Positions 2,090-55,913 of a DNA stretch of 64,000 nucleotides are shown here, one piece after another. Made by a program: the position numbers and the translations under genes. The number at the start of each line of letters is the position of its first letter. Position 1 is the first letter of the stretch. The notes under the pieces were generated by a model. It was not told the DNA's origin. It saw nothing but the letters and a program-made list of their open reading frames with translations, and did no database searches. Source of the stretch: a virus; the IMG/VR virus record IMGVR_UViG_3300042922_000661, positions 31,174 through 95,173 of that record. One strand, given 5' to 3'.

Positions 2090-3306
2090 TACTGATTACC
2101 TGCTTTTGTCTGGTTCTTTGCGTATTCAATGAACATCTTTTCAGCCTGGGCGCGGGGTGTGCCGCTCAGCACCAAGACATCAATGAACGTCTGGCGCTGG
2201 ATCTTCGCCTGGTCGGCCAGCTGCTGACGCAGAAGGGCATTTTTAGCCTTTTCGTCCACCAGCTCGGCCTGCTTCTTAGCTGCACGGGCGCGCTCAGCTG
2301 CCGTCACCTTTTTGGCGCGTGTCAGTTGGCCGCGCAGTTTGTCGATCCGCCCGTCGTCGTTATCCAGCCGCTTAGCCAGCGCACCCATGCGCTTCTGATA
2401 CTTCTCATGCTCACGCTTAACGGCCGCGGCATTGGTCTGCGAACTGCGGTTACGGTTGAACTTAGCCTTGTCGGCGTCGGTGAAGTGCTCAGTGGTTTTG
2501 CGCGGATCGTCGCCATAGGCGTTGTTACCGGCGCTTTTGTGCAGTGCCTGGCCTATGCGCACCTGCCATGAGGCCGATTGCAGGCGAGTGAATGCATGAA
2601 TGACGTGCTTACAGGCGACGCCTTTCAGGTTCGGGTTTTTTTCTTTCGGGTAGGCATACTCTTTTGGCGGGGCAAGGGCAAAGTTGCCAGCTGTTGCAAT
2701 GTAGCGATACCAGTACTGGTGACGGCCACAATCGCAATCAAAAGAGACGCGGCCTGCGCAGAGGCGCTTAGCAACTTTGGCTGCGCTGTCTTTGGCATCG
2801 GTAACTTCCTCGATCAGCTGATCCCACTCTTCAAATCGGAATTTCACGCGGTGATGTTTATCCAGCGACACAGAGGACGCTTCCACACTCACCGTCAACA
2901 CGTTGTGTTTGAGCGTGGTGGGCGTGGCGCGCTTAATGCCAGATCCATCGTCTACGCGGTTGTTGGCGCGTTTAATGTCAATCTGCTGACTACTGGCCAC
3001 CAGCTGCGCATACGTGATACCTGCCTGGGAGGAATTGAATTGCTGACGTGCGCCGGCGCGGTTCGCCTCAAACCCTTTCAAATCCTCTTTCGTGTAGAAC
3101 GTGCCGGACTTCTTTTTGCCCAGGGCAATGATGTCGTCCAGCGCCTTGTTCTTCAGAGTCAGCGGATTGAGCGTGCGCCGCGCTATGCGCCGGGATTTAC
3201 GGCGGTCTTTATCGATCTGGTCGAATACGCGGGAGAACTCTTTGGAAGAAAGCCCCCTGGTTGAGTAGCGCCCCGATTCGGTGCGGGTAAACGGAGTATC
3301 AGCCAC
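2089..3306 (-). CDS. Tail-cluster protein with SWIM-type zinc-binding motif
   Basis: 405 residues. Residues 1-80 are basic. Around residues 200-250 lies FDCDCGRHQYW followed about 35 residues later by GVACKHVIHAF, which fits the CxCx(n)CxH pattern of SWIM zinc fingers. Residues 285-370 are a K/R/A-rich predicted coiled coil. SWIM domains bind DNA or proteins and are unusual in a virion-gene cluster. The gene overlaps both neighbours, so it is co-translated with tail genes. It may be a chaperone, tape-measure-like or DNA-ejection protein; the function is unknown. Confidence 0.6.
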   Translation of the reverse strand: MADTPFTRTESGRYSTRGLSSKEFSRVFDQIDKDRRKSRRIARRTLNPLTLKNKALDDIIALGKKKSGTFYTKEDLKGFEANRAGARQQFNSSQAGITYAQLVASSQQIDIKRANNRVDDGSGIKRATPTTLKHNVLTVSVEASSVSLDKHHRVKFRFEEWDQLIEEVTDAKDSAAKVAKRLCAGRVSFDCDCGRHQYWYRYIATAGNFALAPPKEYAYPKEKNPNLKGVACKHVIHAFTRLQSASWQVRIGQALHKSAGNNAYGDDPRKTTEHFTDADKAKFNRNRSSQTNAAAVKREHEKYQKRMGALAKRLDNDDGRIDKLRGQLTRAKKVTAAERARAAKKQAELVDEKAKNALLRQQLADQAKIQRQTFIDVLVLSGTPRAQAEKMFIEYAKNQTKAGNQ

Positions 3307-6101: not shown

Positions 6102-6110
6102 GATTTAACC

Positions 6111-6134
6111 AAATCTAAAATATTTTTTAGATTG
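6111..6134. promoter_or_regulatory. Paired inverted C1-type operator candidate upstream of ref
   Basis: TCTAA at 6114-6118 on the plus strand and its inverse TTAGA at 6128-6132, each followed by an A/T-rich tract, form a 24-bp palindromic arrangement 10 bases upstream of the ref start. The core matches a set of similar sites across the window and the TCTAA of the P1 C1 operator as I remember it. Confidence 0.45.
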
Positions 6135-30334: not shown

Positions 30335-31408
30335 ATGCCTAACTTTAGCGACGTGGAATTTGAGAAGCGTTATAAACAATTTCTACAGGTACAAACTGAG
30401 TGGCTGACTCTCATCACGGACAACAAAATTTTCTCTGACAAGAATGCCCTGGGTGAAGAATGCCGTCCTATCGGTTTCATCACTGACAAGACCCTTTTCC
30501 TGCGCGCCGAACATCTGCTGAGCGAATGGCAGAAGTTTGCCGATCTGGCTGAAGAGAAACGCAAAGAGCGCTCTATTGCGATCACCACGAACCTCTATCT
30601 GCCGGTTCCAACAATGGTGGTTAACCCGAAGCACGTTACCGTAAACCGCTTCCGCGCCACGGCCACTTCTAACCATACCCGCGAAGACATCATCAAGCGT
30701 TATGAAAAGCAGATCGGTAAGCTGAAGAAAGTCCCGTTTGCTGCCGGTGCCATCATGTCACTGGAAGATGAAATGAAGGTATTTGAAGAGGCTGCGCCTG
30801 GTAAGATGTACCGCGCTCGCACCAGCAACTATTCAGATATTCAGGTCACAGCACGTTACACCGACGATAAGAAAGAGGAAGGCGATAGCTTCCGTTACGG
30901 CGCACACGGCCTGCTCATCTTTGGCGAGACCCTGAACAAGGATCGTGATATCAAGTTGAACGTATCCCGTGGCGGAACCTACACCTCGTCTTACGATGTT
31001 ATCTCGCCAGTTCCGTGCTCTATCCTGCCAAATGCGAAGCTCTATACGCTGGAGGATGTGGAGTACAGCAAAACGCTGGCCGCGCAGCGTGCCGCAGTGG
31101 CATACACCGTACAGACGCGTCGTTCACAGTTTGAACTCCGTTCAAAAACGAAGGTAGCGAAGGCCAAAAACTCGGAAGAAGCCCGCGCATTGAAGGCGGA
31201 AATCGCCGCCTCGCGTGATTTGCTGGCCAGACTGGAAGCCTACGACTGGGCGCTGCTTGATAAGAAGGTAGCAGCTGGCGATACCGAGCAACTGACCATG
31301 CCGGAAATCCGCAAGCGTTACGGCAACGAAGAGCCTCGCGCCGGTAAAAACATGCGTAACATGTATGATCTGCTGCGCGAGTTAGAGAACAATCAGAGCA
31401 AAGATTAA
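30335..31408 (+). CDS. C1-like master repressor of lytic functions (distant P1 C1 homologue)
   Basis: 357 residues; P1 C1 has 283. P1 C1 has no standard HTH and binds asymmetric 17-bp operators. Shared features from memory are LPVPTMVV...HVTVNRFRATATSNHT against YPVPNILR...VTTYQTEAVNSVNMT, and a C-terminal region ending S-V-P-like I-L-P-N-A-K-L-Y-T-L-E-D-V-E against W-P-Q-A-K-I-Y-R-L-A-D-I-E. The gene sits between cre/lox and pacB, as c1 does in P1, is monocistronic, has favourable codons and its own terminator. Identity is weak enough that this must be tested structurally. Confidence 0.62.
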   Translation: MPNFSDVEFEKRYKQFLQVQTEWLTLITDNKIFSDKNALGEECRPIGFITDKTLFLRAEHLLSEWQKFADLAEEKRKERSIAITTNLYLPVPTMVVNPKHVTVNRFRATATSNHTREDIIKRYEKQIGKLKKVPFAAGAIMSLEDEMKVFEEAAPGKMYRARTSNYSDIQVTARYTDDKKEEGDSFRYGAHGLLIFGETLNKDRDIKLNVSRGGTYTSSYDVISPVPCSILPNAKLYTLEDVEYSKTLAAQRAAVAYTVQTRRSQFELRSKTKVAKAKNSEEARALKAEIAASRDLLARLEAYDWALLDKKVAAGDTEQLTMPEIRKRYGNEEPRAGKNMRNMYDLLRELENNQSKD

Positions 31409-36935: not shown

Positions 36936-37334
36936 TCAGCGCAGGCTCTTCAGGTAATGGCTAACTGTAGCGGACCATAGCGTTACTGTGTCACTTCCCA
37001 GCCGATGAATGATGTGGTTATAGTGAGCCTCTGATAGGCTTTCACCGGCGTCATCCTCAAACACCAGCCCTTGTGTTGTCACTCCCCGGTTAACATCAAC
37101 ACTGTACTCAAACTTACCCGACGATCCGGTAGCCTCCACCAGCTCCTGCGCCTTCCAGGCGAAGCGCACGCCACAGTTTTTGCCGAGCTCCAGCGTGATA
37201 ATGCCGTCTACTGCCAGGGCTGTCTGTATCTGGCCCGTCAGCAAAGTGTAGCTATTGCATTTCACTGAGGTGATTTTGCAATAACCTGCCTGCCAGTCCA
37301 ACAGGTTCAGGCCTTTAGTTTTCAGGGCTTTCAT
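36936..37334 (-). CDS. Hypothetical phage protein
   Basis: 132 residues, beta-rich (ITSVKCNSYTLLTGQ, GIITLELGKNCGVRFAW), ending in a helix. Start overlaps the stop of the Tad2-like gene, so the two are co-translated. No family recognised. Confidence 0.5.
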   Translation of the reverse strand: MKALKTKGLNLLDWQAGYCKITSVKCNSYTLLTGQIQTALAVDGIITLELGKNCGVRFAWKAQELVEATGSSGKFEYSVDVNRGVTTQGLVFEDDAGESLSEAHYNHIIHRLGSDTVTLWSATVSHYLKSLR

Positions 37335-37918
37335 TACACCAGCTTCCAGTCATTCGCTAACAGGTCTATCGAAGCTGGCGCCCAGTCAGAGGTGGTCAGC
37401 TGCTGTGCGTTGGTGAGGATGAGTTGCGGCATCTGTGTAACCGAGACTTCCGGGCAGTGATCAAAGTAGCGCGCCGGTACACCGTACATATCAGTGTCTT
37501 TCAGCTCTGTACGTCTCAGGCCTCTGTTGAGTCGCAGATATACACCCTTCCCCCACGCTTCCCGCGCCACTTTGCAGCCTTCTGAAAGCCACAGCTGCGC
37601 CACGGCCAGCGGTGCGTGGTCCTGTCTGAAGTTCAGCTCACCCTTATCGATCAATTGTTCATTGCGCAGGATCAGATCGTTCAGCTTAATCAGCGCCATA
37701 CAGGCCGCGTGGTTCAGCGTTTCGCCAAAACCGGTCATAGTCAGGCCGCTTTTACTGATAACGGCAGCATATCCGGTGTTTTTGGTCTCTGAAGTGTCTG
37801 TAATGGTAAATCCGAGACGTTCAATCACGGCCAGCAACGCCATATAGTCGCCAGCGTAGTCGGCGTCTGCCTCTGCGATCATCGAAATGGTGGCGTTTAA
37901 CTGTTGAGCGGTCATCAT
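37334..37918 (-). CDS. Protein with C-terminal DUF2829/Tad2-like domain
   Basis: 194 residues. The C-terminal 95 residues follow the DUF2829 pattern: AVAQLWLSEGCKVAREAWGK, then PQLILTNAQ...W-x-P and IDLLANDWKLV. DUF2829 includes Tad2, an anti-Thoeris protein that sequesters the cyclic ADPR-type signal. The N-terminal 95 residues are a second small domain not seen in stand-alone Tad2. It lies in a region rich in early-type genes. Anti-Thoeris activity is inferred. Confidence 0.7.
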   Translation of the reverse strand: MMTAQQLNATISMIAEADADYAGDYMALLAVIERLGFTITDTSETKNTGYAAVISKSGLTMTGFGETLNHAACMALIKLNDLILRNEQLIDKGELNFRQDHAPLAVAQLWLSEGCKVAREAWGKGVYLRLNRGLRRTELKDTDMYGVPARYFDHCPEVSVTQMPQLILTNAQQLTTSDWAPASIDLLANDWKLV

Positions 37919-38148: not shown

Positions 38149-38288
38149 GCTTTCTCTCTTCGTGCAGGCGTGCAGAATCACCGGCTTGTGCCGGCGTTCG
38201 AAGTTCACCTGGTTAATTCCGGCGTCGGATGCGCACGGGGGAAATACTGAGGCCTGCCCCGGCGTGGGGCCGGGTGGCTATGTAGGCA

Positions 38289-38387
38289 TTGTGCTGCCCG
38301 GATTTGAACCGGTACCGTCCGCTTGTCCCCATCAGGCCTTACGGCTATTCAATGGAGCGGCGGTTGCTTCCGTTAAGCGACAACACA
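38289..38387 (-). ncRNA. tRNA-like RNA without an anticodon arm
   Basis: 99 nt. Acceptor stem TGTGTTG/CAGCACA (7 bp, one G-U) with an A at position 73; a 3-bp D-like hairpin with a TAACGGA loop; T arm ACCGG-TTCAAAT-CCGGG with a canonical T loop. Where the anticodon arm should be there is a 9-bp bulged stem (38356-38364 with 38314-38323) closing a 30-nt internal hairpin, and I find no 7-nt loop with U33. It is either a decayed type II tRNA or a deliberate tRNA mimic. Confidence 0.5.
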
Positions 38388-38429
38388 ACGGTAAAGGCAC
38401 ACGTAAGCGCTCTTACCTGTTGTCCTGTA

Positions 38430-38558
38430 TCAGCCTGCCACCAGCTGCGCCATGAGCCACTTATGACCAGCAAACAGTCCGGCATTCAACAGCAGATGGA
38501 ACGTGGCAAACTCAATGACTTTCAGCGTCGTTTTATAGAGTCCGGGCTTTTGGTGCAT
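38430..38558 (-). CDS. Tiny membrane-type protein, 42 aa
   Basis: Begins MHQKPGLYKTTLKVIEFATF and has a central hydrophobic helix (FATFHLLLNAGLFAG). A clear CAGGAAGTTAT ribosome-binding site precedes the ATG at 38558. It lies directly downstream of folded RNA element A, whose hairpin ends 26 nt before the start codon, so translation may be RNA-controlled. Confidence 0.5.
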   Translation of the reverse strand: MHQKPGLYKTTLKVIEFATFHLLLNAGLFAGHKWLMAQLVAG

Positions 38559-38584
38559 ATAACTTCCTGAAAACGTTGTTGGTG

Positions 38585-38638
38585 GCCGGTGCCATACCCG
38601 GCAAGTAACCTCTCAAGCGACTGGTCAACATGGTTACT
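38585..38638 (-). ncRNA. Structured RNA element A
   Basis: Leftward: 7-bp stem AGTAACC/GGTTACT enclosing a 21-nt loop with GTTGACCAG, then a GCCGGG-TATG-GCACCGGC hairpin. Same layout, loop core and hairpin as element B at 39750-39800, with a compensatorily changed outer stem. Confidence 0.6.
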
Positions 38639-38725
38639 GGCGGCTAAAACCCCTTTGTACGCAAAATATGAAGCGGGGGCCAGTCTTGCGATCGCAGCAG
38701 CAACTGCGAATGCACCACAACGGAG

Positions 38726-38779
38726 AGAGCACTGATCGTTCCTAGTCCAACGACACTTTGCGCAAAGCGTCAATGCTCT
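38726..38779 (-). ncRNA. Three-way-junction RNA element
   Basis: A 10-bp closing stem (38726-38735 with 38770-38779, 9 of 10 identical pairs plus one G-U) encloses two hairpins that tile the interior with no linker: TCGTT...AACGA (38736-38753) and CACTTTGCGCAAAGCG (38754-38769). No coding evidence. Confidence 0.5.
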
Positions 38780-38795
38780 TTCCTGTTGGTGTGCC

Positions 38796-38924
38796 TTATT
38801 TGCGGCGGTGCTTCTTCATGCCGCCTCTCGCCGCTTTGATGAACGTCTCAATACCGTAGATAGCCACCAGCGCGTAAATCACGGTGAGAAACGGGTGTTC
38901 TGCAGCAAACTCTGATAACGACAT
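38796..38924 (-). CDS. Tiny single-span membrane protein, 42 aa
   Basis: Begins MSLSEFAAEHPFLTVIYALV; one membrane span (about residues 10-27) and a basic tail ending GGMKKHRRK. The ATG at 38924 follows ACAGGACGCGAT. A longer frame upstream has no ribosome-binding site. Resembles phage holin-like or regulator peptides in shape only. Confidence 0.5.
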   Translation of the reverse strand: MSLSEFAAEHPFLTVIYALVAIYGIETFIKAARGGMKKHRRK

Positions 38925-38991
38925 ATCGCGTCCTGTCGTGGGGGAATGAGGTTGTTGTGATCGTTTTCCGTTAGCGCGATTGTTCAATGAG

Positions 38992-39114
38992 GCGGGACTT
39001 AAACCCGCTTTGCCTTCGCAGCCCATCGCTGACCGCCTGTGTCGATTCACAGGCAGGGCTTTCGCCCCGTGGATTCCGGATCCACAACTCCTACGGTGTG
39101 TTAAAGCGATCACC
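38992..39114. ncRNA. Array of five hairpins, one with a tRNA T-arm sequence
   Basis: GCGGG...CCCGC (38992-39008, leftward loop TTTAAGT as in a T arm), GCCTGTG...CACAGGC (39035-39054), GGGC-TTTC-GCCC (39056-39067), GTGGA-TTCCGGA-TCCAC (39069-39085) and GGTG...CACC (39095-39114). No complete cloverleaf could be built on either strand. Probably rearranged tRNA DNA or a structured RNA. Confidence 0.5.
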
Positions 39115-39116
39115 AC

Positions 39117-39186
39117 AACGGTCGAGAACACTGAGCAACCACGCGCCGGATGTTCTTTTCAATCACCCTTCAGTGTTCTCGCCGTT
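39117..39186. repeat. Near-perfect 17-bp inverted repeat
   Basis: 39117-39134 pairs with 39170-39186 over 17 bases with one bulge; 35-nt loop. Starts 2 bases after the hairpin array, so the structured region is continuous. Confidence 0.6.
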
Positions 39187-39380
39187 ATGGGCTGGTCTTT
39201 CCCGGCTGTCACGAACTGTTAAGGTCTGCCGCTGACCTGCTCTGCCACCAGCCAAATTAGCCGGTAGACAGGGCATCGCCTGGTGTTGGCGTGTAGTGCA
39301 TGGGGGGCTGGTGCCTCCAGCTGTCCGATACGGAATCTACGGACGGGTCTTGTAAAGGAATTTGCAAAACGTCAGGTAAC

Positions 39381-39524
39381 TGTTCCGTCCCGCGTGCGCA
39401 TAGCCGCATTCCCCCATTTGTGAGCGCGCTGACAGAGGTAATCTTTCGCCAAACGCCAGGTAAAACGATAGAAACACCAGCACGCTCACAAATAGTGATC
39501 CCTTACGAGGATCAGGCGGGAACA
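39381..39524. ncRNA. Branched RNA element with 16-bp stem
   Basis: Outer TGTTCC/GGAACA pairing (39381-39386, 39519-39524), a 16-bp stem with one mismatch (39416-39431 with 39478-39493) and a TGATCC-CTTACGA-GGATCA hairpin (39496-39514). No gene is seen between 39187 and 39667. Confidence 0.45.
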
Positions 39525-39667
39525 TGTTTAAGCCTCATGGGGCATTCTTTGCGCGGGTTTAGTCCATCAACCGCGTTCACTGCCATGACAGGAGGGGCTA
39601 CTTGCCGTTCACCCTTCTCATAACACGCCTGGAAAAGGTAATTAACCAGGGGCGGCCCGTTACGAAC

Positions 39668-39740
39668 TGGTGCATGGGGTCGGATTTGAACCGACGGCGG
39701 ACTTAACAACTTCTGCGTTCGGCCTCTTCGCTACCCATGC
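39668..39740 (-). tRNA. tRNA or tRNA-like gene with encoded CCA
   Basis: Acceptor GCATGGG/CCCATGC is a perfect 7-bp stem, the T arm GTCGG-TTCAAAT-CCGAC is canonical and ACCA is encoded at the 3' end. D arm GCG...CGC with AGAGGCCGAA loop. The anticodon region contains TTGTTAA, which would give anticodon GUU (Asn), but the stem around it pairs badly and the gene is about 4 nt short. P1 phages carry an Asn tRNA. It may be decayed or atypical. Confidence 0.55.
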
Positions 39741-39749
39741 TGAATACTT

Positions 39750-39800
39750 GCCGGTGCATAACCCGGCGCGGACACTTAGGCATCTGGTCAACCTGCCCGC
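39750..39800 (-). ncRNA. Structured RNA element B
   Basis: Leftward: outer stem GCGGGCA/TGTCCGC (7 bp with one G-U) enclosing a 19-nt loop with GTTGACCAG, then GCCGGG-TTAT-GCACCGGC. It ends 9 nt before the tRNA-like gene. Shares layout with element A. Confidence 0.6.
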
Positions 39801-39919
39801 TTGCGTAAAAAATGGATAGCTTTACACCCAGCCAGATTTGCATTGCGTCTGCCTCGCAACTGAAACGTTTTCCCCGATCCAGCCGTCAACACACCTTAAT
39901 GCGTTCACGGCTGAGCCTG

Positions 39920-39996
39920 AAAAAAAGCCCGGAAACTACCGGGCATAAAAGACTACACACAGCAAAACCAGCTCGTAAACCGGTTTTGCTCTGTGG
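39920..39996 (-). ncRNA. Candidate two-hairpin small RNA with terminator
   Basis: Leftward: a 14-bp stem with one mismatch (39982-39995 with 39956-39969) followed by GCCCGG-TAGTTT-CCGGGC and seven T (about 39921-39944), a strong rho-independent terminator. Either the 3' end of the operon ending at 40180 or an independent sRNA. Confidence 0.5.
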
Positions 39997-40119
39997 GTAA
40001 AACCTCGATTAAACAATTAACTATGAATAACCCACAAAAAAACCTATCGGATTTTTAGCAGCACTTCTCTGTGCTGCCAGCGAGGGGAAATGTACACAAA
40101 GCAGAGTTATGAATCAATG

Positions 40120-40146
40120 AAAATCTAAGAAATCTCTTAGATTTTC
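40120..40146. promoter_or_regulatory. Palindromic C1-type operator candidate
   Basis: AAATCTAAGAAATCTCTTAGATTT: two TCTAA cores (40124-40128 and the inverse 40137-40141) facing each other, as at 6111 and 41529. Lies between the alpha-CTD-like gene and the RNA island. Confidence 0.45.
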
Positions 40147-40179: not shown

Positions 40180-41469
40180 TCAGCGGCGTTTGATGTTCGG
40201 GTTTTTGATGTTCTCAATGTCACCGTTTGCTTTAGACCAGTTGATACACCAGCTATTTATGGCAGCTCGAATCTCAGCTTCCGAGGCTTCACTCAGCCCC
40301 TTCATTAGGGCCAGTTTGCCCGGTAACTCGCCAGCTACGTTTGCCACACACTCATAACCCGCTTTAGTCAGTACGTTGAGGATGCGTGTTGGTATGGCCA
40401 GCTCTGACAATGGCGCAGCCTGCCCGTCCAGAATGCGCTGGTGGAGACGTGGGAAGTCAATTACCAGGCGCTTCATGATGCGTGTATGCAGCTCATCGTT
40501 GATGGCTGTGTCCCACATAGGCAAAAGGTCAGGCAGGAGACGGAATACAGGATTGCCCCACACACCCGGCACAACGTCCATCGCCAGCATCATCGCAGTG
40601 CGGATCTGGAAGTGGAAATCTGCCGTCTCAATGGAAACATCACGGATGCCATGGAAGACGCTCAGTCCGAAATGGAAGTTATAGATGTAACAGCCCACGT
40701 CGCCGGTGCCGTCCGGCAACTGAAGCAGAAACTGCTGCACGTCTTCCCGGCCATCGTGAAAATCAACGCGCTCTTTAATGTGATTGTACAGTGCAGTCGT
40801 CTTCAGCAGATCGTTGGCCGTCTCAGCGCGCAGACGGCGCTCAGTGCCGACAACCTTATCTGCGATATTCAGTTTGCTCTGCAACTCCTGACGCTTTGCG
40901 CTTTCTTTCTTGCGGTCGGCGCGCATCTGCGAAATGGTCTTATCACGCTCGTTAAGGTCAAGCGCCAGACGTTCAGGGTGCTTGCGCCGGTATTGGGCAT
41001 GCTCTTGAGTAAGCGTGGCCAGCGCCAGCTGTGCGGTGGTCAGTGCGGACTTCACACCATCACGGGCGTTTTCTGCGTTGATCACGCGGTTCTCAGCCTC
41101 TGAAACCTTTGCTTCTGCTGCTTCTCTGGCTTCTTCAATGGCGTTCTGCGCATCGAGGCGGATTTTCGTTATCTCGCCGTGCAGCGCTGAATGCGAGCTC
41201 AGCTGCTCTTCCGCCTGCTCCAGGGCGTCTGCCATCAGATTATAGGTGTCGGCTTCATGGTTGAGGCGCAGGCCAATATCGATCTGGATCTGCTCCAGCG
41301 CGTTCGTGCAGTTGTTTAAGAGTCGCAATTCCAGGTCATCGAGCGTGAGGCGCTTTCTGATCGAATTAAGCTGGCCGTAAGCGGTGACAAAGGACTGGTG
41401 CAATACGTCGTCGTCAACGGTGCATTCTGGAAGTTGTTGCAGCTGCTGGATTGGGGCGAGTGTAGTCAT
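40180..41469 (-). CDS. Coiled-coil protein with RNA polymerase alpha-CTD-like tail
   Basis: 429 residues. About residues 85-215 are a long coiled coil (ENRVINAENARDGVKSALTTAQ). Residues 225-350 form a globular middle. The end, ELAIPTRILNVLTKAGYECVA followed by ELPGKLALMKGLSEASEAEIRAAINSW, has the helix-hairpin-helix profile of the RNA polymerase alpha C-terminal domain. Three TCTAA operators lie 40-80 bp upstream, so it is probably an early lytic gene. It might alter host transcription; not recognised as a named P1 gene. Confidence 0.65.
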   Translation of the reverse strand: MTTLAPIQQLQQLPECTVDDDVLHQSFVTAYGQLNSIRKRLTLDDLELRLLNNCTNALEQIQIDIGLRLNHEADTYNLMADALEQAEEQLSSHSALHGEITKIRLDAQNAIEEAREAAEAKVSEAENRVINAENARDGVKSALTTAQLALATLTQEHAQYRRKHPERLALDLNERDKTISQMRADRKKESAKRQELQSKLNIADKVVGTERRLRAETANDLLKTTALYNHIKERVDFHDGREDVQQFLLQLPDGTGDVGCYIYNFHFGLSVFHGIRDVSIETADFHFQIRTAMMLAMDVVPGVWGNPVFRLLPDLLPMWDTAINDELHTRIMKRLVIDFPRLHQRILDGQAAPLSELAIPTRILNVLTKAGYECVANVAGELPGKLALMKGLSEASEAEIRAAINSWCINWSKANGDIENIKNPNIKRR

Positions 41470-41510: not shown

Positions 41511-41548
41511 ACTCTAAATTAACCACTATCTAAGAGTTTTCTTAGAAT
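41511..41548. promoter_or_regulatory. Cluster of three C1-type operator candidates
   Basis: TCTAA at 41513-41517 and 41529-41533 and the inverse at 41542-41546; the last two form TCTAAGAGTTTTCTTAGA. Directly upstream of the start at 41469. Confidence 0.5.
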
Positions 41549-41609
41549 TTATTAAACGATTTAGGAGGGGTAATAGTGGCTGAGTCGTTTCTCAGCCACC
41601 AGCAGGAGG

Positions 41610-55727: not shown

Positions 55728-55913
55728 CGTCACTACTGGAGGTTCCAATCTCCGGGTGGTGACGTTGACAGGGTTGGAACTACCGGCGTACGAGGAAACC
55801 GGCCTACCCGAAGGTAGCCCCGCCAACGCCACCATTGAAACATCTGGTAAATTCCAGACGTGGTGGCGCCGGAGGCACTAAGTGCCTCCTCGTACGTTCG
55901 GGGTTCCAATCCC
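55728..55913. ncRNA. Folded GC-rich element, multibranch RNA or DNA structure
   Basis: A hairpin CGTCACTAC/GTGGTGACG (55728-55736, 55756-55764) is followed by a domain closed by 55771-55780 with 55903-55913. Inside are a 9-bp stem CGTACGAGG/CCTCGTACG (55787-55795, 55888-55896), CTACC-CGAA-GGTAG (55804-55817), CGCCACCA/TGGTGGCG (55827-55834, 55861-55868) enclosing TCTGG...CCAGA, and GGAGGCAC-TAA-GTGCCTCC (55871-55889). GGTTCCAATCYCC occurs at 55741 and 55902. It lies in otherwise AT-rich DNA. Confidence 0.7.

Follow-up and report, generated by a model that had tools for sequence, protein, structure and literature searches.

The window analysed here is a 64,000-nucleotide stretch of a 95,173-base virus record (IMGVR_UViG_3300042922_000661, positions 31,174 to 95,173). 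Judging by its PmgS (phrog_1660), a P1-type late promoter activator encoded by the same element and a C4 antisense RNA at 55752-55839 (Rfam RF01695, 84 bits), of which P1 also has one, the source element is a 95-kb phage-plasmid of the D6/P1 type. Between pmgS (40180-41469, minus strand) and a Tad2-like gene (37334-37918) lies an island of structured RNA modules and very small genes. It starts at about 40120, upstream of the range 38289-39996 delimited in the original prediction, and everything in it reads leftward, as had been proposed for most of it; apart from one strandless palindrome, all features of the island given below are on the minus strand. The Tad2-like gene immediately downstream matches PF11195 (Thoeris anti-defence 2-like domain) with 42 bits, and its RefSeq label is MW1434 type I TA toxin. 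The nearest relatives are Pantoea plasmids (82-86% over the region) and 21 IMG/VR loci recovered via pmgS, and the closest named phage reached by the latter route is D6 (29% amino-acid identity); at the DNA level, no named phage of the INPHARED collection carries the window region or module B, one of the RNA modules described below. Homologous array modules are found, reordered, in P1, D6 and phage-plasmids of Enterobacter, Leclercia and E. coli, as well as in prophages beside a repressor gene and in the Qin prophage of K-12 between dicF and dicB.

At the upstream edge of the island, the operator-like palindrome AAATCTAAGAGATTTCTTAGATTT (40121-40144) is present in nearly all aligned relatives. 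With 0-3 mismatches to the form AAATCTAAG-N6-CTTAGATTT, the genome contains three copies versus 0.01 expected. The other two have three mismatches each; one (41526-41549) precedes pmgS, and one (6110-6133) immediately precedes a Ref-like gene. In P1, C1 operators are present at the equivalent places, Pban and pmgR. The three palindromes probably mark a phage regulon and count in favour of the reading preferred below. A candidate promoter, TTGATT-N17-TACATT (40089-40117), was picked out by eye; its match to the consensus is not strong, and a stricter consensus scan missed it. Downstream lies an sRNA or leader candidate (39917-40023) with an RprA-like 3' end (Rfam RprA match of 30.6 bits, under the cut-off of 70) and an intrinsic terminator, GCCCGG..CCGGGC-T7, which was recovered in the terminator scan and is conserved in relatives; this is the terminator-bearing sRNA candidate of the original prediction. 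By eye, no consistent boxA or put-like antitermination motif is apparent.

The array continues with a 17-position hairpin of 15 pairs (39878-39915), two of them with double changes in the consensus fold, which accounts for the 17-bp inverted repeat noted earlier, and with a dicBF-operon-type hairpin pair (39750-39800) recognized by the shared motif CAGGTTGACCAGATGCCTAAGTG, which also occurs in the P1 'dicF-like region' and in K-12 Qin just upstream of dicF. Next come a tRNA-like element, slot 1 (39668-39740), and module B (39495-39666), which comprises a leader stem (39666-39617), a core (39589-39532) and a terminal hairpin. The core stems of module B are 100% paired in 12 diverse sequences, with one double-changed pair. 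The module was detected in 32 IMG/VR contig stretches, in lambdoid prophages beside a repressor gene and in Pectobacterium and Pantoea genomes, and yielded no Rfam match in the searches made. It is followed by a long inverted repeat of 18 pairs with a variable loop (39414-39495, consensus fold), the arms of which (39495-39478 and 39431-39414) show no broken pair in 306 cells and one double-changed pair; the 16-bp inverted repeat reported previously is recovered here as one of 16-18 bp.

Module C (39300-39417) has the closing stem ATGGGGG/CCCCCAT and a GCTGG-AGGCA-CCAGC hairpin, and at least 120 stretches of viral contigs contain its core. Among 36 diverse sequences, joined via the AATGCNGCT..GCGCANGCGG core, the closing stem is 96.6% canonical, whereas shuffling gives 81.5% at most, and as many as five pair types occur at a position. 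The window stem and GTTGCGGTG/CACCGCAAC of P1 are one and the same stem in different letters. Module C has a homologous core inside a covarying closing stem, a feature by which we judged kinship to STnc100 (RF02076). Relatives of module C share the core and the GGAGGCACC hairpin with this RNA, which is also phage-borne, whereas the closing stem of the window copy is of another sequence with the same pairing. The Rfam STnc100 matches of the D6, P1, K-12 Qin and E. coli ET210 copies reach 33.4-39.6 bits, all tested copies remaining below the gathering score of 47, and the window copy has no match up to E = 5. As the Rfam matches of the relatives are STnc100-like, the notion of module C as a brand-new RNA family was dropped. 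Prophage copies of STnc100 are transcribed in EHEC according to RNA-seq, one of them being confirmed by Northern blot (PMC5331693), and PasD and STnc100 have a common ancestry (PMC13192938). Given the STnc100-like module C and the RprA-like terminator, the array might consist of trans-acting base-pairing sRNAs, akin to STnc100/PasD or DicF, that are freed by processing. Although compatible with the reading that we prefer below, this explanation appears very unlikely, given that seeds are not identifiable in the array and that conservation peaks in stems and junctions rather than in single-stranded seeds.

Further downstream, a GGAAAGACC hairpin module (39191-39206), the motif of which is repeated in lambdoid prophages, and a 20-bp hairpin with two double-changed pairs (39114-39189), both delineated from the consensus fold, lead to a nearly invariant multi-branched junction RNA of 169 nt and 59 pairs (38951-39119), which corresponds to the junction or multi-hairpin element of the original prediction. 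The alignment of 16 junction RNA sequences is 96% identical and 98.9% paired, with two double-changed pairs; the RNA was seen only in Pantoea-type phage-plasmids and gave no Rfam match in the searches made. At its 3' edge, positions 38948-38950 are a recurrent cargo insertion point, occupied in relatives by genes for TerB, DUF3927 or an SPFH/Band 7 protein, or by a tRNA-like. A second long hairpin with a GTTGTGGTG module (38640-38782, outer limits approximate) was recognized by its likeness to D6, which amounts to 81% over 38739-38688. The repeated structured motif of the original prediction is recovered in the form of GTTGTGGTG-bounded modules at 39118 and 38720. Many phages (loci L008, L010-L013, L035 and L037 of our set) contain long hairpins with CACAAC and GTTGTGGTG as their boundaries, and the middle GTTGTG strand of these hairpins could pair in two ways, a possible structural switch. 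At the far end of the island, a hairpin, ACAACAGGTAA..TTACCGTTGT (38384-38424, from the alignment), abuts another tRNA-like element, slot 3 (38288-38388).

Of the tiny membrane proteins claimed for the region, two look real. For the 42-aa single-span protein encoded at 38796-38924, 13 homologues display 101 synonymous versus 78 non-synonymous codon differences, with neither frameshifts nor stops; for the 42-aa protein at 38430-38558, which is annotated in Pantoea plasmids, the changes look mostly synonymous by eye in the alignment. A third ORF (39337-39525) was rejected as a membrane protein gene because frame-breaking gaps are present in 8 of 13 homologues. Neither was the ORF that overlaps slot 3 (38213-38332) accepted as coding, the window copy being shifted by one base compared to most relatives.

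The long conserved non-coding block with its multi-branch junctions might also be viewed as a single ornate RNA of about 1 kb, akin to GOLLD or ROOL, with embedded tRNA-like domains. GOLLD and ROOL are likewise large structured phage RNAs near tRNAs: both adjoin phage tRNA islands, and GOLLD linkers sometimes contain tRNAs (PMC12286853). However, the covariance models of the two RNAs have no match in the window, either at gathering score or up to E = 5, and the array differs from them in being modular and interrupted by genes. Among the relatives, modules are reordered or absent and cargo genes intervene, as expected of independent cassettes. Despite the long-range pairs in the consensus fold, the single giant RNA was not adopted, because the module order differs between phages, and we regard it as quite unlikely.

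The support for structure in the array is comparative. The segment 39915-38951 of the window is 82-94% identical to nine relatives, versus 73-81% for the adjacent pmgS in the same nine, and over the junction RNA the identity to these relatives increases to 92-98%. In the alignments, the named stems are 97.5-100% paired, and this value falls to 12-57% when the partners are slid by 1-3 columns. The acceptor, D and T helices of the tRNA-likes retain 94-100% standard pairs per helix with a few compensatory changes, only one to three double-changed pairs being present per tRNA-like alignment. Compensatory changes were found in module C, slot 3, the junction RNA, module B and both slot-1 alleles. 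Most weight is given to the double-changed pairs and to the slid controls, since the shuffle control may be inflated by kinship among the sequences. Thermodynamic folding was rejected as proof of structure, since the excess is only modest: the single-sequence fold energy has a mean z of -1.12 versus -0.47 (Mann-Whitney p = 0.03), which is weak evidence. By the comparative measures, the structure exceeds chance expectation. Conservation of the stems in homologous regions was part of the test set by the original prediction, and the stems proved to be conserved.

These data also bear on the possibility that the island is what remains of a tRNA cluster under decay, located in a hot spot of recombination, and that common descent and insertion explain its structure. 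The lack of any ARAGORN tRNA call in the window, the normal tRNAs in this region of P1 and D6, and the cargo breakpoints within the array (38948, 38734-38771 and 38512-38571) are all in line with such decay. Yet the non-coding block is more conserved than the flanking protein gene, compensatory changes are present, and the CCA is kept in nearly all slot-1 alleles. Decay is disfavoured because of this conservation and appears highly improbable. The original suggestion that decayed tRNA genes alone do not account for the structure holds up in that the tRNA arms persist, what replaces the anticodon arm is itself conserved, and the tRNA-likes have further conserved RNAs on their flanks.

The two tRNA-like elements of the original prediction are both matched by the Rfam tRNA model (RF00005) above its gathering score of 29: 39671-39740(-) with 40.9 bits and 38289-38387(-) with 30.2 bits. 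The window carries allele A of slot 1, which measures 73 nt including an encoded CCA and keeps the acceptor, D and T arms (99% paired among 7 alleles) without an anticodon stem. In relatives, the slot may instead hold allele B, 64 nt including the CCA and lacking any anticodon arm, with a tRNA score of 41.8-49 bits. The 3' end of both alleles is a discriminator followed by CCA (TCA in locus L027), and their flanks are fixed. In slot 3, a conserved 7-bp helix sits in the anticodon-stem position, a long hairpin takes the place of the anticodon arm, and no CCA is encoded; the 17 aligned sequences are 97.5% paired, and three pairs of the replacement helix are double-changed. The canonical 5-bp anticodon stem with a 7-nt loop is absent from allele A, allele B and slot 3. 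With their intact acceptor, D and T arms and an anticodon arm that is absent or replaced, these alignments indicate that, in slots 1 and 3, the tRNA body has been preserved and the decoding part has not. By eye, the tRNA-Phe and tRNA-Stop calls made by ARAGORN in relatives are odd anticodon arms that have been misread. One Pantoea subgroup has, at the 38948 cargo point, a third tRNA-like (L006 5120-5203; L026 8512-8595), the anticodon arm of which is likewise odd and which ARAGORN calls 'tRNA-Stop (tta)'.

What fills slot 1 varies among relatives. Its 3' edge is CCA followed by GTTCG, in front of module B. Members of the Pantoea group have mimic A or B in this position, and the two alleles alternate on the pmgS tree; the count of changes is six, including one that stems from an unlabelled tip. 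In a Pectobacterium polonicum prophage, the flank, CCA followed by GTTCGGAACGGG, is preceded by a canonical tRNA-Ile(CAU) of 71.8 bits, which ARAGORN labels tRNA-Met from its CAU anticodon. In the Leclercia and E. coli phage-plasmids, the slot is a long hairpin, with compensatory differences between loci L010 and L011. Locus L011 also carries, at 3084-3169, a degenerate relative of the slot-1 tRNA of the window, which is tRNA-Arg in RefSeq and tRNA-Val in ARAGORN. In two further loci, L043 and L047, module B comes directly after what seems to be the 3' part of a protein-coding gene, and module B therefore does not depend on having a tRNA-like next to it.

Since the slot takes a working tRNA or a plain hairpin, a role in cis, as a boundary or processing element, is suggested for its occupants. 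Such a role is further favoured because the slot-1 tRNA-likes, with their RNase P and 3'-end features, lie exactly at cassette edges and are replaceable. Contrary evidence comes from slot 3, which has no encoded CCA, and from the module B copies that lack a tRNA-like neighbour. Alternatively, the tRNA-likes would be trans-acting decoys or competitors, directed at proteins with affinity for the acceptor end or the elbow, for instance CCA-modifying toxins, the remainder of the array being a carrier. In favour of this, the acceptor, T and D arms have been retained, in slot 1 together with the CCA, and decoding is lost; the two alleles swap repeatedly, as an arms race might give; a Tad2-like counter-defence gene lies downstream; and toxSAS toxins target the 3' CCA end of tRNA (PMC11559606). 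Against this stand the working tRNA and the plain hairpin in the same slot and the missing CCA of slot 3. Overall, action in trans seems possible but rather unlikely. The more specific proposal of a decoy for tRNA-targeting defences fares worse in the case of anticodon nucleases: such a decoy would need the anticodon loop, and it is disfavoured because the anticodon arm is precisely the missing part, while the slot exchange points to a role in cis. A generalization is unlikely as well: tRNA mimics that bear CCA and have the anticodon arm removed or replaced would form a class maintained by temperate phages, would replace one another as alleles in a fixed slot where a working tRNA is found elsewhere, and would have as their trans targets enzymes or defence proteins gripping the acceptor end or elbow.

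The reading that we prefer, with a probability of roughly one half, is that of a non-coding RNA array transcribed in the lytic phase and then processed, its tRNA-like domains being cis-acting boundary or processing elements. The comparisons show that the modules are homologous and structurally conserved, that slot 1 is exchanged, that the palindromes are present and that the anticodon arm has been lost; from there we infer promoter, transcription, processing and function as follows. A leftward, mostly non-coding transcript, a mosaic of independently folding RNA cassettes from a pool on which the early operons of lambdoid prophages also draw, would start after pmgS at its own operator-flanked promoter once repression is lifted, by analogy with dicBF. 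It would pass the intrinsic terminator, where partial stopping could release a short leader RNA, and continue through the cassettes into the small-protein genes, the TerB/DUF3927 genes in relatives, and the Tad2-like gene. RNase III, which processes the related dicBF operon, would most likely cleave the long hairpins, and the tRNA-likes retain the features relevant for RNase P and 3' processing (the acceptor-T stack, the discriminator and, in slot 1, the CCA) and have lost those needed for decoding.

By sequence comparison, several modules are related to known prophage RNAs, namely STnc100, the dicBF operon and an RprA-like terminator, a kinship that the original prediction had missed along with the operator-like site at the upstream edge. 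The dicBF operon of Qin, a precedent for repression and RNase III/E processing (PMC10448788), shares with the window the CAGGTTGACCA..TAAGTG hairpin and module C. It is a repressor-controlled, structured and processed segment, to which the array is likened, control and processing of the latter being predicted by analogy. Unlike this operon, the window has tRNA-likes and the junction RNA, no DicB was found, and DicF RNA (53 nt, RF00039) has no Rfam match in the window, whereas the K-12 control was detected with 76.7 bits. In the tRNA-Asn/Thr region of P1 and D6, upstream of tciA, the phage type is the same, CACAAC..GTTGTGGTG modules are repeated, tRNAs abut module edges, and a terminator precedes the array. 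However, the tRNAs there are decoding ones, those of the window are exclusively non-decoding mimics, and the set and order of modules differ. With respect to tRNAs proper, the mimics are alike in the acceptor, D and T arms, the discriminator and, in slot 1, the CCA, and differ in lacking a usable anticodon arm.

Phage tRNAs, STnc100 and dicBF-type operons are kinds already known. Three findings appear to be new, no description of them having been found in the open-access literature searched: phage-plasmids and prophages are linked by a mosaic of modules, two of the RNAs are unnamed, and tRNA-likes unable to decode recur in a slot whose occupants are exchanged. The usual explanations of phage tRNAs are codon supply and the replacement of cleaved tRNAs; the interchangeability of a working tRNA, a tRNA without an anticodon arm and a plain hairpin in one slot argues that the tRNA fold has a role other than decoding. 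Two conserved structured RNAs without an Rfam family in these searches, module B and the junction RNA, are added, and unannotated RNA modules of P1/D6-type elements become linked to those of ordinary E. coli prophages, among them the one in the dicF-dicB gap of K-12. In that gap (Qin, L038 3433-3642), a sub-threshold STnc100-like RNA is unannotated in the RefSeq table. In the D6 record (L035 8033-8183), tRNA-Asn and tRNA-Thr are annotated on the strand opposite to the Rfam model matches.
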